DNA from: Aliiroseovarius crassostreae
GTDB taxonomy: Bacteria > Pseudomonadota > Alphaproteobacteria > Rhodobacterales > Rhodobacteraceae
Length of the DNA: 64,000 nucleotides
Assembly: GCF_001307765.1 (NCBI RefSeq)
Contig: NZ_LKBA01000023.1
Location: 62,001 to 126,000, forward strand
Reading direction: 5' to 3'
Shown: positions 32,322-36,448 of the stretch, one piece after another
How positions within the stretch are numbered: position 1 is the stretch's first letter
Layout of the letters: each line of letters begins with the position of its first letter
Position numbers and translations under genes: made by a program
Notes under the pieces: model-generated
Databases searched by the model: none
Told to the model about the DNA's origin: nothing
Seen by the model: only the letters and a program-made list of their open reading frames with translations

Positions 32322-33752
32322 ATGACCCGAACACAAGAACCTTCATTCCGTGAATCCGTGGATATCATGTTCGACCGTGCGGTCGAGATCATGGACCTCC
32401 CCCCCGGACTGAAGGAAAAAATCCGTGTGTGTAACGCCACATATACCGTGCGGTTCGGCGTGCGGTTGCGCGGCGAAATCCGCACCTTTGTTGGGTATCG
32501 CGCCGTGCATTCCGAACATATGGAACCGGTAAAAGGAGGCATCCGTTACGCCAGTGCCGTGAACCAGGACGAGGTCGAAGCTCTGGCCGCCCTGATGACC
32601 TATAAATGCGCGCTGGTCGAAACGCCTTTTGGCGGTTCAAAAGGCGGGCTGTGCATTGATCCGCGCGAATATGAAGAGCATGAGCTGGAGCTGATCACCC
32701 GTCGGTTTGCCTATGAACTGGCCAAACGCGACCTGATCAACCCCTCGCAAAACGTTCCCGCCCCCGATATGGGCACCGGCGAACGCGAAATGGCCTGGAT
32801 TGCGGACCAATATGCCCGCATGAACACCACCGACATCAACGCCAAGGCCTGTGTCACCGGGAAACCCACCCATGCGGGCGGGATCTCGGGCCGGGTCGAA
32901 GCAACCGGGCGTGGGGTCCAATACGCGCTGAGAGAGTTCTTCCGCCACGAGAAAGACAAGGCAATGGCCGGCCTGTCCGGAAAGCTTGAAGGGAAGCGTA
33001 TCATCGTCCAGGGCCTTGGCAATGTGGGCTATCACGCGGCCAAATTCCTGTCAGAGGAAGATCACGCCCTGATCACCGGCATCATTGAACGCGACGGCGC
33101 GCTGGTCGATGAGAGCGGGCTGGATGTGGAAGCGGTGCGCAACTGGATCGGCGCCAATGGCGGGGTTTCCGGCTTCCCGGACGCGACCTATGTCGAAAAC
33201 GGGCGTGCGGTGCTGGAAAATGAGTGTGATATTCTGATCCCGGCGGCCCTGGAGGCCGTGATCGACCTGACGAACGCCGATCGGATCAAGGCACCGCTGA
33301 TCATCGAAGCGGCCAACGGTCCCGTCACCGCTGGCGCCGATGATATCCTTCGTGAAAAGGGCTGTGTGATCATCCCCGATATGTATGCCAACGCAGGCGG
33401 CGTGACCGTTTCCTATTTCGAATGGGTCAAGAACCTCAGCCATATCCGGTTCGGCCGGATGCAGCGTCGCCAGGAAGAGGCACGTCACCAGCTTGTGATC
33501 GACGAGCTGGAGCGGCTTGACCGCTACCTGGGGGACGCCTGGTCGATGACGCCGGAGTTCAAAGAGAAATATCTGCGCGGCGCAGACGAGCTCGAACTTG
33601 TGCGCTCGGGGCTGGATGACACGATGCGCACCGCCTATCAGGCCATGCGGGACGTGTGGCATTCACGCGACGATGTGCCTGATCTGCGCATGGCCGCCTA
33701 TCTGGTGGCGATTGACCGGATCTCCAAAAGCTATCGCGCCAAGGGCCTCTGA
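32322..33752 (+). CDS. gdhA: Glutamate dehydrogenase (Glu/Leu/Phe/Val family)
   Basis: An oxidative deaminase or reductive aminase interconverting glutamate and 2-oxoglutarate, 476 residues from the ATG at 32322 with AGGAG seven bases upstream. Motifs include KGGIRY, the catalytic-lysine loop GGSKGGLCIDP, NVPAPDMGTGEREMAWIADQY, and the Rossmann loop VQGLGNVGYHAAKF. The C-terminal region contains EAANGPVTAGAD and ANAGGVTVSYFEW. It most resembles the NAD-type hexameric enzymes; cofactor choice is not certain from reading alone. Its 3' intrinsic terminator has been split by the insertion element at 33799. Confidence 0.94.
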   Translation: MTRTQEPSFRESVDIMFDRAVEIMDLPPGLKEKIRVCNATYTVRFGVRLRGEIRTFVGYRAVHSEHMEPVKGGIRYASAVNQDEVEALAALMTYKCALVETPFGGSKGGLCIDPREYEEHELELITRRFAYELAKRDLINPSQNVPAPDMGTGEREMAWIADQYARMNTTDINAKACVTGKPTHAGGISGRVEATGRGVQYALREFFRHEKDKAMAGLSGKLEGKRIIVQGLGNVGYHAAKFLSEEDHALITGIIERDGALVDESGLDVEAVRNWIGANGGVSGFPDATYVENGRAVLENECDILIPAALEAVIDLTNADRIKAPLIIEAANGPVTAGADDILREKGCVIIPDMYANAGGVTVSYFEWVKNLSHIRFGRMQRRQEEARHQLVIDELERLDRYLGDAWSMTPEFKEKYLRGADELELVRSGLDDTMRTAYQAMRDVWHSRDDVPDLRMAAYLVAIDRISKSYRAKGL

Positions 33753-33781: not shown

Positions 33782-33798
33782 AAAAGGCCGCGCGATAT
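33782..33798 (+). terminator. Left half of gdhA/amidase terminator, interrupted by insertion element
   Basis: The 5' arm (AAAAGGCCGCGC) and loop (GATAT) of an intrinsic terminator end here. The matching 3' arm (GCGTGGCCTTTT with an 8-T run) is now at 35075-35090, beyond the insertion element. Rejoining the two gives a 12-bp stem with a single G-T wobble and a 5-base loop, with A-run and T-run on opposite sides as in a bidirectional terminator between convergent genes. Confidence 0.85.
33790..33798 (+). repeat. 9-base target-site duplication, left copy
   Basis: GCGCGATAT directly abuts the left terminal inverted repeat and is repeated exactly at 35066-35074, directly abutting the right one. 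Confidence 0.9.
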
Positions 33799-33823
33799 CC
33801 AGCCCTTTACCATAAGTGTTGCA
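33799..33823 (+). repeat. Left terminal inverted repeat
   Basis: 25 bases, perfectly complementary to 35041-35065. Confidence 0.93.
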
Positions 33824-33837
33824 AAATAAGATTTTGG

Positions 33838-33856
33838 TTGGCCAGTTTCTGGCCAA
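33838..33856 (+). repeat. Sub-terminal hairpin, left end of insertion element
   Basis: An 8-bp perfect stem (TTGGCCAG / CTGGCCAA) with loop TTT. Flanking ATAAGA and TCTTAT can extend the pairing across a small bulge. It lies 14 bases inside the left inverted repeat and could block read-through into the element or serve as a transposase-binding structure. Confidence 0.6.
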
Positions 33857-33905
33857 TCTTATCCCACAATAATAAGAAAAACTCGGAAAAACCGGGAGAG
33901 AAAGT

Positions 33906-34696
33906 GTGGGAACAGCCACGAAGAAATCTTCGTCAGGCGCTCGTAGGCGCTTACCTTTGCCTTCCTTTGGCATCAGCGTAAATTTCTGCCGAAATCCTCA
34001 GTGTGATTTCTTTGCAGAGACTCCAGACCCATTCGACAGAAGAGGGCAAAATCGGAGCAAGGTCAAGCCGAACATGCCGCGCGGCAGGGTCATCGGATCC
34101 GGCGATGAAAAGACCTTCCAGTGTGGCGGGTGCGGAAAGACCTCAATCATCAAGAACAACAAGGCGATCATCGAAGAATATCGTCGCCTTCGTCGGAAGT
34201 TCCGCCCTGAATTTCCAAGAGATGCCTGTTCCACCGAGGAGTGCGTAAATCACGGGAAGACCCAATCCGAGAACCCGGAGCTATATCAAAAGCGGGGACG
34301 ACGCAGAAAGGCACGCAACGCTGGAAATGCAAATCCTGGCCGTATCACACGAAATCGGAGCCGCATCGCTCTATGCGCATACTGACCGACCGGGAGAGCA
34401 TGGCACCTGATCGTCGAGCACGCCTTATGCGTCTGGCGACGCTACGGAGCGTTGATGCCTATTTTCATAAGGTCCGGAGCAACCTGAAGTTCGCGGAACG
34501 TCCTTCTCACACGCCAAGCGCCAACGGCCGCGCCTGACATCGGCATTACCTCTACAACCCGGAAACCATGGTGAAAATCGTCGATATTTTTCGCTTCACG
34601 CATAACTGGATGGGCAGGCGCTCAACGAAAGAAACCCCAGCGATGAAGCTGGGGTTGGCCAGAGGCAAGGTCAATGCGAAGGATCTGTTCAGTTAG
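33906..34696 (+). pseudogene. Broken zinc-ribbon transposase
   Basis: Starting at a GTG at 33906 with GGGAGAG upstream, the frame encodes a basic N terminus, a first zinc ribbon (CRNPQCDFF with CGGCGKT about 50 residues later), then a second (CSTEEC). A one-base loss near 34291-34298 shifts the frame: the continuation TTQKGTQRWKCKS is read in the next frame. That frame hits a TGA at 34535-34537 where tryptophan is expected, then continues in frame with HYLYNPETMVKIVDIF and THNWMGRRSTKETPAMKLG to a TAG at 34696. Compared with what I recall of related transposases, a large part of the catalytic region between the zinc ribbons and the C terminus is missing. Three lesions make it non-functional. 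Confidence 0.82.
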
Positions 34697-34778
34697 CGGC
34701 GATCTGACAAGCCTTTTATGATCCAGCAGAAAACCACCTATTTCTCACTGGGTTAGATTTAAGGGAGTTAGTATCGTG

Positions 34779-35015
34779 ATGCGCAATATCGTTTTTGTTG
34801 GAACTTTATGTGCAGGAGCAGTTTTGGGAGTGGCAGAGAATGCCAATCCGATTGTTTCCCAACAACAATTTCGAAATCTCATCGGTGAAACTTGCTTGGG
34901 AACAATCGCGTTGAGGGACCCGGTTTGGTATCGCATGGGAGGAAACGGAAAGGGATCAGAAGCCGGTAAAGAATTGGTAATCGTCGGAAAACTACCTTCT
35001 GATGTCGAGAACTGA
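34779..35015 (+). CDS. Small putative exported protein, passenger of insertion element
   Basis: A 78-residue ORF lying between the transposase remnant and the right inverted repeat. AAGGGAG at 34761-34767 precedes its ATG, and a perfect hairpin follows the stop by one base, so it has the layout of a real transcription unit. The N terminus (MRNIVFVGTLCAGAVLGVA) resembles a Sec signal peptide with possible cleavage near residues 19-23, leaving about 55 residues with one cysteine. Its codon use is AT-richer than the surrounding chromosome. I recognise no family and assign no function. It could be a host gene captured by the element or a chance ORF. Confidence 0.5.
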   Translation: MRNIVFVGTLCAGAVLGVAENANPIVSQQQFRNLIGETCLGTIALRDPVWYRMGGNGKGSEAGKELVIVGKLPSDVEN

Positions 35016-35016
35016 A

Positions 35017-35043
35017 GCAGCCCAGAGATCTCCTCTGGGCTGC
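35017..35043 (+). terminator. Perfect hairpin after passenger ORF, overlapping right inverted repeat
   Basis: An 11-bp perfect stem (GCAGCCCAGAG / CTCTGGGCTGC) with loop ATCTC starts one base after the stop codon. Its last three bases are the first three of the right inverted repeat. There is no T-run. Confidence 0.6.
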
Positions 35044-35065
35044 AACACTTATGGTAAAGGGCTGG
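35041..35065 (-). repeat. Right terminal inverted repeat
   Basis: 25 bases, exact complement of 33799-33823. Confidence 0.93.
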
Positions 35066-35090
35066 GCGCGATATGCGTGGCCTTTTTTTT
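35066..35090 (+). terminator. Right target duplication and 3' arm of the split terminator
   Basis: GCGCGATAT (35066-35074) is the second target-duplication copy. GCGTGGCC followed by eight T (35075-35090) is the 3' arm and T-run that once paired with 33782-33793. Confidence 0.85.
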
Positions 35091-35125: not shown

Positions 35126-36448
35126 TTACTTGCGCAAACGATCCGCCTGCGCTGCATCCTGAATGGCCCAGTATTGCAATGCATCACGGATCCCTTCCGC
35201 AGCCTGCGACCGCCATTTCGCCGAGGTCATCCGCTCAAGATCCTTAGGCGAAGACATGAAGCCAAGCTCCAGCAACACCGACGGAATGTCCGGTGCTTTC
35301 AAAACCGAAAACCCTGCCTCCATCCGAGGGGTTTTGTAAATCGATCCCGTTGCGGAATGAATGCCTTCAACCAGCGCATCAGCCAAGGCACTCGAGCGGG
35401 GGGTGGTTTCCCTGCGCGCCAGATCCATCAGCACAAGCGCCACCTCATCATCCTGTTCCCGCAGGTCCACCCCGGCCAGCAGGTCCCCCCGATCATGACG
35501 CTCCGCCAGTTTCTGAGACGCGAGATCCGTGGCTTCTTTGGACAGGGTATAGACCGTGGCCCCCGTGGCACGCCCCTGTGCCAGAGCATCCGCATGCAGC
35601 GAGATGAACACATCTGCCCCGGCATGGCGGGCAATGGTTACACGTTCCTCCAATGAAACGAAGCTGTTGTCATCACGGGTCAGCACAACATCAAACCCAC
35701 CTGCCCGACGCAGAACGTCCCGCAACTCACGCGCAAATGTCAGCACCAGATCCGCCTCAACCACGCCATCGCGTTCCGCGCCCGGATCAATTCCCCCATG
35801 ACCGGGGTCCAGAACCACCCGCAACGCGGCCTGCCCACGCTGGTGGGGTTTACCGACGGCATCGCCGGATCCCGAAGCGAACACAGGACGGGTAGCACCC
35901 AGAGCCGGTGCCCCGGCGGTCTGTGCAAATTCCTCGTCCGAGACCGGCACGAGACGCAGGTGCAATCGCGCGCCCTGATCGCCCGTCGTCATTTGTGATG
36001 TCTTGATTTTCAGCGGCTCTGCCAGATCCAGCACAAGCCGCGTCCATCCCGGTCGATATAACCCGGCCCGCAAATCCGAGATCCGGTCGCTTTCATAAAG
36101 CACCGCCTCGCGGTCAAGCCCGGTCCAGTCCAGCTCTGAAAAATCAATCACCAGACGCCGGGGTTGTGTCAGCGTGAAAACGCGCCAGGGCACGGCGCGT
36201 GTCATGTCAATCTGAAGCTCAAGGCTGCGCCAGTTTGCCTCCAACGTCACCCCATCACCCGCCAGACGGGCCAGCGCGGACAGCTTTCCGGCCTGGCCCG
36301 GTATCGACTGCCCCTCTGCCAGCGCAGGGGTGAGCAGCAGACCGAAACAGACCACAAGACAGTTGAAAAAGCTGGTGAAACGACAAATTGAGCGCAAAGG
36401 GCTGCTCCGTTCAGGATTGGGGCCGAGGGGCGGGATTGGGGCGATCAT
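35126..36448 (-). CDS. N-acetylmuramoyl-L-alanine amidase (AmiC-type, AMIN + Amidase_3)
   Basis: A periplasmic zinc amidase that cleaves the MurNAc-L-Ala bond, needed for daughter-cell separation. From the ATG at 36448 the product has 440 residues: signal peptide ending near ALAEG, an AMIN domain around residues 60-165 (VFTLTQPRRLVIDFSELDW), then Amidase_3. Zinc-site motifs VLDPGHGGIDPGAE, the acidic EADLVLTF and FISLHADAL are present, and SVLLELGFMSSPKD carries the catalytic glutamate. It is convergent with gdhA; the terminator between them is split by the insertion element. The start has GGGGGAGGGG upstream. Confidence 0.93.
   Translation of the reverse strand: MIAPIPPLGPNPERSSPLRSICRFTSFFNCLVVCFGLLLTPALAEGQSIPGQAGKLSALARLAGDGVTLEANWRSLELQIDMTRAVPWRVFTLTQPRRLVIDFSELDWTGLDREAVLYESDRISDLRAGLYRPGWTRLVLDLAEPLKIKTSQMTTGDQGARLHLRLVPVSDEEFAQTAGAPALGATRPVFASGSGDAVGKPHQRGQAALRVVLDPGHGGIDPGAERDGVVEADLVLTFARELRDVLRRAGGFDVVLTRDDNSFVSLEERVTIARHAGADVFISLHADALAQGRATGATVYTLSKEATDLASQKLAERHDRGDLLAGVDLREQDDEVALVLMDLARRETTPRSSALADALVEGIHSATGSIYKTPRMEAGFSVLKAPDIPSVLLELGFMSSPKDLERMTSAKWRSQAAEGIRDALQYWAIQDAAQADRLRK

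Follow-up and report, generated by a model that had tools for sequence, protein, structure and literature searches.

How does a transposable element come to lie exactly in the loop of a transcription terminator? The question is raised by a 1,267-bp element at positions 33799-35065 of a 64,000-nucleotide stretch of Aliiroseovarius crassostreae DNA (contig NZ_LKBA01000023.1, positions 62,001 to 126,000; this whole stretch is called the window below). A preliminary description, made from the window sequence alone, had suggested that the element may target terminator hairpins. The element and its relatives strongly support this suggestion, as the empty sites carry such a hairpin at 32 of 44 sites and, in a later set, at 11 of 13. 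Judged from these sequences, it is nearly certain that the family targets terminators. It is furthermore highly probable that the transposase chooses intrinsic terminators and cuts centred on their dyad, and that the element swaps in inward-facing hairpins of its own.

A split terminator between two convergent genes

The window element is bounded by 25-nt terminal inverted repeats (33799-33823 and 35041-35065), which are 100% complementary, and by an exact 9-bp target duplication, GCGCGATAT, at 33790-33798 and 35066-35074; both kinds of repeat were re-found exactly as first described. When the element and one duplicate are removed, AAAAGGCCGCGC and GCGTGGCCTTTT form a 12-bp stem with the loop GATAT, followed on the 3' side by a T tract of eight T in all (35083-35090). 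The restored hairpin has a folding energy of -19.9 kcal/mol (z -6.0), which none of 200 shuffled sequences equalled, and among 15,974 background positions the share with an equally good hairpin, centred in the same way, is about 0.01%. Two genes converge on the site: gdhA (+ strand), the product of which matches ELFV_dehydrog in Pfam, stops at 33752, and a 457-amino-acid open reading frame (ORF) on the - strand, the putative amidase gene, stops at 35126. The stem, the loop, the T tract and the convergent setting were thus all as the preliminary description had given them. Its further claim, that both genes have lost their shared terminator, holds for the original hairpin; at the left junction merely a 5-bp stem is re-formed. 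The features of the locus are as follows.

33782..33789, no strand: left half of the split terminator stem (AAAAGGCC), from sequence and folding
33790..33798, no strand: left copy of the 9-bp target duplication (GCGCGATAT), from sequence
33799..35065, + strand: whole element, 1,267 bp, deletion derivative, from ends, duplication and transposase comparison
33799..33823, + strand: left terminal inverted repeat, a 25-nt perfect repeat
33836..33858, + strand: left inward-facing subterminal hairpin GGTTGGCC...GGCCAATC with a tail poor in T, from folding
33906..34336, + strand: N-terminal remnant of the transposase, corresponding to L054 residues 1-144, the frame changing at about residue 135, from comparison with L054
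34337..34693, + strand: C-terminal remnant of the transposase, residues 458-576, residues 145-457 missing, from comparison with L054
34776..35015, + strand: possible cargo ORF of 79 amino acids without a Pfam match, from ORF calling and Pfam scan
35017..35043, - strand: right inward-facing subterminal hairpin with an 11-bp stem, from folding
35041..35065, - strand: right terminal inverted repeat, a 25-nt perfect repeat
35066..35074, no strand: right copy of the 9-bp target duplication, from sequence
35075..35090, no strand: right half of the split terminator stem and T tract, from sequence and folding

The residues 145-457 that are missing from the transposase of the window copy include two of its three likely catalytic acids. 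By these comparisons the window element is a deletion derivative, apparently a non-autonomous copy within a family of DDE-type transposons.

Comparing the gdhA gap in close relatives, as the preliminary description had proposed, gave element-free sites. The comparison covered 185 bases around the gap in 20 relatives of the same genus (in L093 the end of gdhA lies outside this stretch), and no element was seen at the gap in any of them. The region of the 457-amino-acid ORF was present in all 21 genomes of the genus searched, the own one included. The best hairpin lay within the gap in 19 of the 20 relatives and inside gdhA in the remaining one (L106). A GC stem followed within two bases by at least four T was found in eight, including the three nearest (G005, G008 and G002). 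As two of these near relatives, G002 and G008, retain AAAGGCCGCG...CGCGGCCTTTT at the gap, the restored terminator is taken to be real. When the 21 genomes were searched with the end pattern, only the two copies of the own genome and two single, unpaired matches with three mismatches were found. The second own copy is 2,994 bp long and has ends identical to those of the window copy. The 9 bp that it duplicates, TCCGAAGGG, have AAAAGGCG on one side and GCGCCTTTTTT on the other, which is again a terminator loop.

Target sites across the family

Ends and duplications were called for 40 elements, the two own copies included. Target duplications of accepted elements were 9-10 bp long and exact in most. 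Empty sites were scored for a hairpin centred at most 3 bp from the duplication with a cut-off of 21.0, which is the 99th percentile of a background of 15,974 positions from other parts of these loci; a local null consisted of 8,160 positions within 110 bp. The cut-off was reached at 28 of the 40 sites (binomial 7e-45) compared to 0.94% of the 8,160 local positions. When four further sites of a Bacillota element that carries dfrG (by annotation) were added and a tandem pair in L066 was treated as one unit, 32 of 44 sites, from Pseudomonadota and Bacillota, passed. A later set of 18 new loci (15 from a single family outside the class) was scored with the cut-off unchanged. It gave 13 elements accepted by rule, and 11 of these passed, the other two scoring 20.0 and 18.0 (null 0.52% of 3,849 positions). 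With both sets combined, 43 of 57 sites pass.

The hairpins are also placed precisely. Among the 28 strong sites, the distance from the dyad to the midpoint of the duplication was at most 0.5 bp in 19 and never more than 2.5 bp. A run of at least four A or four T accompanied 27 of the 28 hairpins, compared to 13 of 191 equally strong background hairpins and 13 of 77 nearby ones, which argues that terminators are chosen and not any inverted repeat. In chimeric sites, in which left and right halves of different sites were joined, the mean score fell from the observed 25.1 to 15.2 +/- 0.5, and the complementarity of the real sites is thus greater than a shared half-site sequence would give.

Two kinds of site were particularly informative. 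Two plasmids carry the dfrG element in one and the same terminator, inserted at an identical 9-bp site and in opposite orientations (L181 and L183); among its five distinct sites with duplications, four are terminators (L175, L177/L178, L181/L183 and L182, the exception being L179). In L066 (6142-9430) a single terminator contains a tandem pair of elements, and GCCCCCGGG is present three times; one of the elements is short, with no transposase ORF seen, and the other is full. It seems that the second element used the junction of the first, and that such stacking may proceed by re-use of a junction. The score of L066 rose from 16.0 to 29.5 once the pair was treated as one unit.

Ends were accepted in 27 of 48 loci in the first round and in 11 of 38 in the second, 14 of the 38 having already been in the first round without accepted ends. 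In the first set acceptance was by eye, on the quality of the repeats and the duplication, and L059 and L089 were kept with one mismatch each in the duplication, whereas L077, with two, was left out. L154 was dropped as a repeat of L067, L180 is cut short, and only L178 and L181 were counted for the two sites that they share with L177 and L183, respectively. L176 was scored with a 9-bp frame, its exact duplication being 8 bp. L046 scored 30.0 when a 4-bp offset was allowed and 7.0 within 3 bp, and was counted as below the cut-off. An earlier pass, in which 21 of 29 sites exceeded its own 99th percentile with six 10-bp duplications framed as 9 bp, was superseded by the 40-site scoring. The orientation of flanking genes taken from raw ORFs (13 convergent, 18 tandem and 9 divergent, n=40) was unreliable because spurious ORFs touch the element ends, and was not used.

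Seven loci (L047, L048, L061, L174, L184, L216 and L221) had both ends and no duplication and were left out. The 9-mers flanking them are unlike, which suggests recombination between copies or later rearrangement; the flanks of L047 and L061 resemble half terminators.

Subterminal hairpins

A hairpin above the 95th percentile of element interiors was found at 31 of 40 left ends and 35 of 40 right ends. At the right end at least five T among ten bases were present on the inward side in 34 of 40 elements and on the outward side in 10 of 40 (paired test on T counts, P 6e-7). The left hairpin was found by motif in 24 elements and had 17 distinct forms with paired variation, such as A-T/G-C exchanges at one pair, G-C/C-G at another and G-C/T-A at the base. 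Both hairpins are present in the window copy (33836-33858 and 35017-35043), the left one with a T-poor tail. They look like terminators of transcripts that enter from either side or shields of the transposase gene, two roles that would be compatible. Probably they act as replacement terminators for transcripts from the host genes, and this would be the most economical reading of their structure. The idea that the element's own hairpins may replace the lost terminator, already present in the preliminary description, was borne out structurally at both ends and by the tails of the right hairpin, and less well by the left tail. We do not claim re-formation of a terminator at the junctions as a general rule, the effect being modest.

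Proposed mechanism and alternative explanations

In the mechanism proposed here, the transposase would select an intrinsic terminator, in which an A tract, a T tract or both adjoin a GC stem. The two strands would be cut with a stagger of 9 (or 10) bp centred on the dyad, so that the loop is duplicated and half of the stem remains in each flank, an arrangement that can be read directly from the insertions. Since the placement is symmetric, it is suggested that two transposase subunits may read the two arms, either as a duplex palindrome or as an extruded hairpin or cruciform. The inward hairpins seen at each end would stop transcripts arriving from host genes and protect the gene of the transposase. 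Insertion would then be a terminator-for-terminator swap that spares the host genes and brings in swappable cargo, often for anti-phage defence. Terminators would provide very many harmless and sequence-diverse landing sites. If this is true, it would explain the harmless placement of defence genes, and of a resistance gene familiar from the clinic, between genes of the host, and structure-guided DNA targeting by a DDE transposase would become directly testable.

Random insertion, with only harmless intergenic copies persisting where terminators are common, would presumably also leave the surviving insertions mostly between genes. Against it are the position of the dyad, no more than 0.5 bp from the duplication centre in 19 of 28 strong sites, the passing rate of 0.94% among the 8,160 local positions, and the use of the same terminator at the same 9 bp in both orientations, and we regard it as extremely improbable. 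A target similar to the end of the transposon itself (AAAGGGCTGG when read outward), in the manner of elements that integrate next to their own termini, would agree with several junctions. The outer end GCCCTTT of the main Rhodobacteraceae group can pair with the host half stem (7 bp in L052, L054, L055 and L056), junction stems exceed those of shuffled ends on average (left 13.8 compared to 11.3, right 13.4 compared to 11.7), and the second insertion in L066 is at such a junction. However, members with quite different ends (CGGGCTATTGAG, CAAGGCATTAAC and TAAGTAGTTCAG) also insert in terminators. As these members behave alike, a target that merely resembles the element ends was rejected, and such self-like targeting is improbable.

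The two other explanations concern what is recognised at the terminator. The transposase could read A-tract and GC half sites in duplex DNA, so that a hairpin is never needed, in agreement with the loose half-site bias observed (A most frequent at -12 to -6 and G/C at -5 to -1, max. 0.79 bits). The 32 strong sites, however, contain 29 distinct left 7-mers, and real halves pair better than chimeras (25.1 compared to 15.2), although this separation is incomplete because natural terminators are always self-complementary. We find recognition of a sequence palindrome possible and doubtful, and structure, not a loose palindrome, is likely to be what the transposase reads. The transposase could also follow a paused or terminating RNA polymerase, or the nascent hairpin RNA, instead of the DNA. 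Selection of tracts as well as stems (27/28 compared to 13/191) would fit this, whereas the symmetry of the cut about the DNA dyad and the use of one terminator in both orientations would not, and coupling to transcription appears rather unlikely.

Several observations weigh against terminator targeting with inward hairpins as replacements. In all, 12 of 44 and 2 of 13 sites were below the cut-off. Six of them (L046, L089, L073, L071, L208 and L215) have A/T-flanked stems nonetheless: in L046 a terminator-like stem of 12 bp lies 3.5 bp off centre, and the stems of L071, L073 and L089 are imperfect. No structure is apparent at L058, L067, L043, L176 and L179, and L045, L075 and L158 are uncertain cases. 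At the site of the second own copy, 6 of 19 relatives had a long hairpin, 11 had no clear hairpin, and a clear A/T-flanked terminator was present in two only (L114 and L116). The T tail of the left subterminal hairpin was weak (18 of 40 inward compared to 12 of 40 outward, P 0.04). Moreover, sites of related elements are not fully independent events. The preliminary description had named insertions in unstructured sites as evidence against its suggestion; the five loci above look like such insertions. From the sites collected, the terminator specificity is judged strong, not absolute.

The transposase and its distribution

Full-length transposases of the family are about 570-650 amino acids long. 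No Pfam transposase family reached its cut-off in the members scanned, and in NCBIfam the members scanned matched models for an IS1-like zinc/helix-turn-helix part only and no full-length family. When 14 members were aligned, the invariant positions included D228, D367 and E465, which are the presumed catalytic residues. The AlphaFold model had a mean predicted local distance difference test score of 68.7, and its top fold matches were the DDE transposases Mos1 (E 5.5e-4) and ISCth4 (E 3e-3, prob 1.00). The template-modelling scores of these two matches were low (0.12 and 0.28 by query), and a sequence search of solved structures returned zinc-finger proteins and one aspartate carbamoyltransferase chain, results which speak against the assignment. 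We read the protein as an IS1-like zinc/helix-turn-helix region followed by a long DDE-type domain, i.e. as a DDE transposase with a distant relationship to IS1.

Within the same family, 14 of 394 genomes contained relatives, as did 16 of 398 of the phylum, 3 of 385 of the class (with a stricter E-value) and 2 of 74 and 14 of 196 genomes of two families outside the class; the counts include the own genome wherever it was searched. The GTDB species collection gave 43 loci, which by the names recognised we take to be from Rhodobacterales; it was scanned with a closer alignment, the 12-sequence alignment being too diverse. Relatives also occur on plasmids of Rhizobium, Polaromonas, Marinobacter, Pseudomonas and Acidovorax, and a broader plasmid search gave 106 records, mostly of Enterococcus (77) and Staphylococcus (9). 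The dfrG element was present, whole or in part, on 163 plasmid records, mostly of Enterococcus, and terminator targeting predicts where it should sit on them. A DNA-level search of plasmids with the window element gave no match. In three scans of viral contigs one relative was found, L185, a dfrG transposase; the Bacillota members were sampled via plasmids and this one viral contig. Scattered proteins annotated as hypothetical are thereby united into one mobile family, so far unnamed.

One branch has a DnaQ-like RNase_T exonuclease joined to the N-terminus of the transposase (L161:2947-5496, Pfam E 3.6e-24; for the fusion in L160, PHROG match E 1.8e-41), and further open frames of 793-864 amino acids occur, besides these two, in one family outside the class. 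In one genus of the phylum search, L162-L169 match the N-terminal part of the profile only and have no acceptable ends. They were left out of the counts, and these relatives may be domesticated.

Cargo genes

The elements have the transposase gene at the left and differing genes at the right. Cargo was scanned against Pfam in 30 elements (22 and 8); among small ORFs only that of the window was included (34776-35015, 79 amino acids), and it had no Pfam match. PADLOC was run on 20 proteins. Known or likely defence genes were present in 10 of the 30 elements:

L079: type I restriction-modification system with HsdM, HsdS and HsdR
L155: D12 methylase with a NotI-type nuclease
L156: type IIG-like methylase with a specificity subunit
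L157: DNA methylase beside an unmatched ORF
L158: BsuBI/PstI-type system
L054: AbiD
L055: Abi_C-domain protein, not listed by PADLOC
L210: Tmn
L218: PtuA of Septu
L220: type IV retron reverse transcriptase

The other scanned elements carry enzymes or unknown proteins. We give about even chances to the wider picture of a cross-phylum family that reads terminator structure, swaps in its own terminators and spreads defence and resistance cargo, with one branch fused to a DnaQ-like exonuclease.

Comparison with known mobile elements

Among known mobile elements, group IIC introns and Tn7 settle at terminators. The former are reverse-transcriptase ribozymes, and Tn7 uses TnsABCDE and makes a 5-bp duplication at one site; the machinery of both is unrelated to that of the present family. 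Insertion into hairpins is shared with IS1272/TnSha1 of the IS1182 family: according to PMC4923244, it inserts in hairpins, several of which were confirmed as transcription terminators, by blunt insertion with partial deletion of the stem and no target duplication. The present family, in contrast, makes loop-centred duplications of 9-10 bp and keeps the stem in two halves, and no IS1182 model was among the NCBIfam matches listed for the transposase.

The dfrG transposon Tn7491 (also printed Tn4791) is reported, in passages of PMC10763498, to have a 9-bp duplication and, in one copy that has lost it, to lie between convergent genes. These passages give ends that match those seen here for the dfrG element, and mention neither terminators nor a wider family. 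PMC4432960 describes two copies of dfrG that have hypothetical genes next to them. The Tn7491-like transposase is a distant full-length homologue (19% identity over 613 columns, E 8e-15; tblastn from L046, E 2e-37), whereas the terminal repeats are unlike (TAAGTAGTTCAG compared to CCAGCCCTTTACC) and the cargo differs. Among the open PubMed Central papers listed in the searches, none links the family to terminators, as judged by title or start of abstract.

The IS1 family makes target duplications of 8-11 bp, and its ends begin with GGT. The 9-bp duplication and, probably, the zinc/helix-turn-helix region are likenesses to IS1; the length of the transposase, about 570-650 amino acids, and ends that do not start with GGT are differences. 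The best scores with the IS1 model NF033558 were 43.1 bits (L032) and, for L015, 33.5 bits, far below the 100-bit cut-off. With the IS1/IS1595 zinc model NF050000 (cut-off 28), L015 scored 33.0 and three others 27.1, 23.9 and 18.4, while none was listed for L044. The IS256-type zinc model NF048018 also passes in L015 alongside NF050000 (29.4, cut-off 27). An IS1595-family transposase gene (by annotation) lies at L176:2755-3846, inside a broken Azospirillum member.

Probable decay of the two own copies

The frame change near transposase residue 135 is common to both own copies and lies at the same place, near a G run (window 34241-34385, L015:2149-2323). In IS1 a programmed -1 frameshift is known, and the shared frame change could represent either common decay or a programmed -1 frameshift. 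Because the window copy is deleted, the frame change is shared and the C-terminal transposase part of the second copy is inverted (L015:2640-3540), both copies are probably immobile without help. A strong hairpin, AACCCCAGC...GCTGGGGTT, lies at one breakpoint of this inversion.
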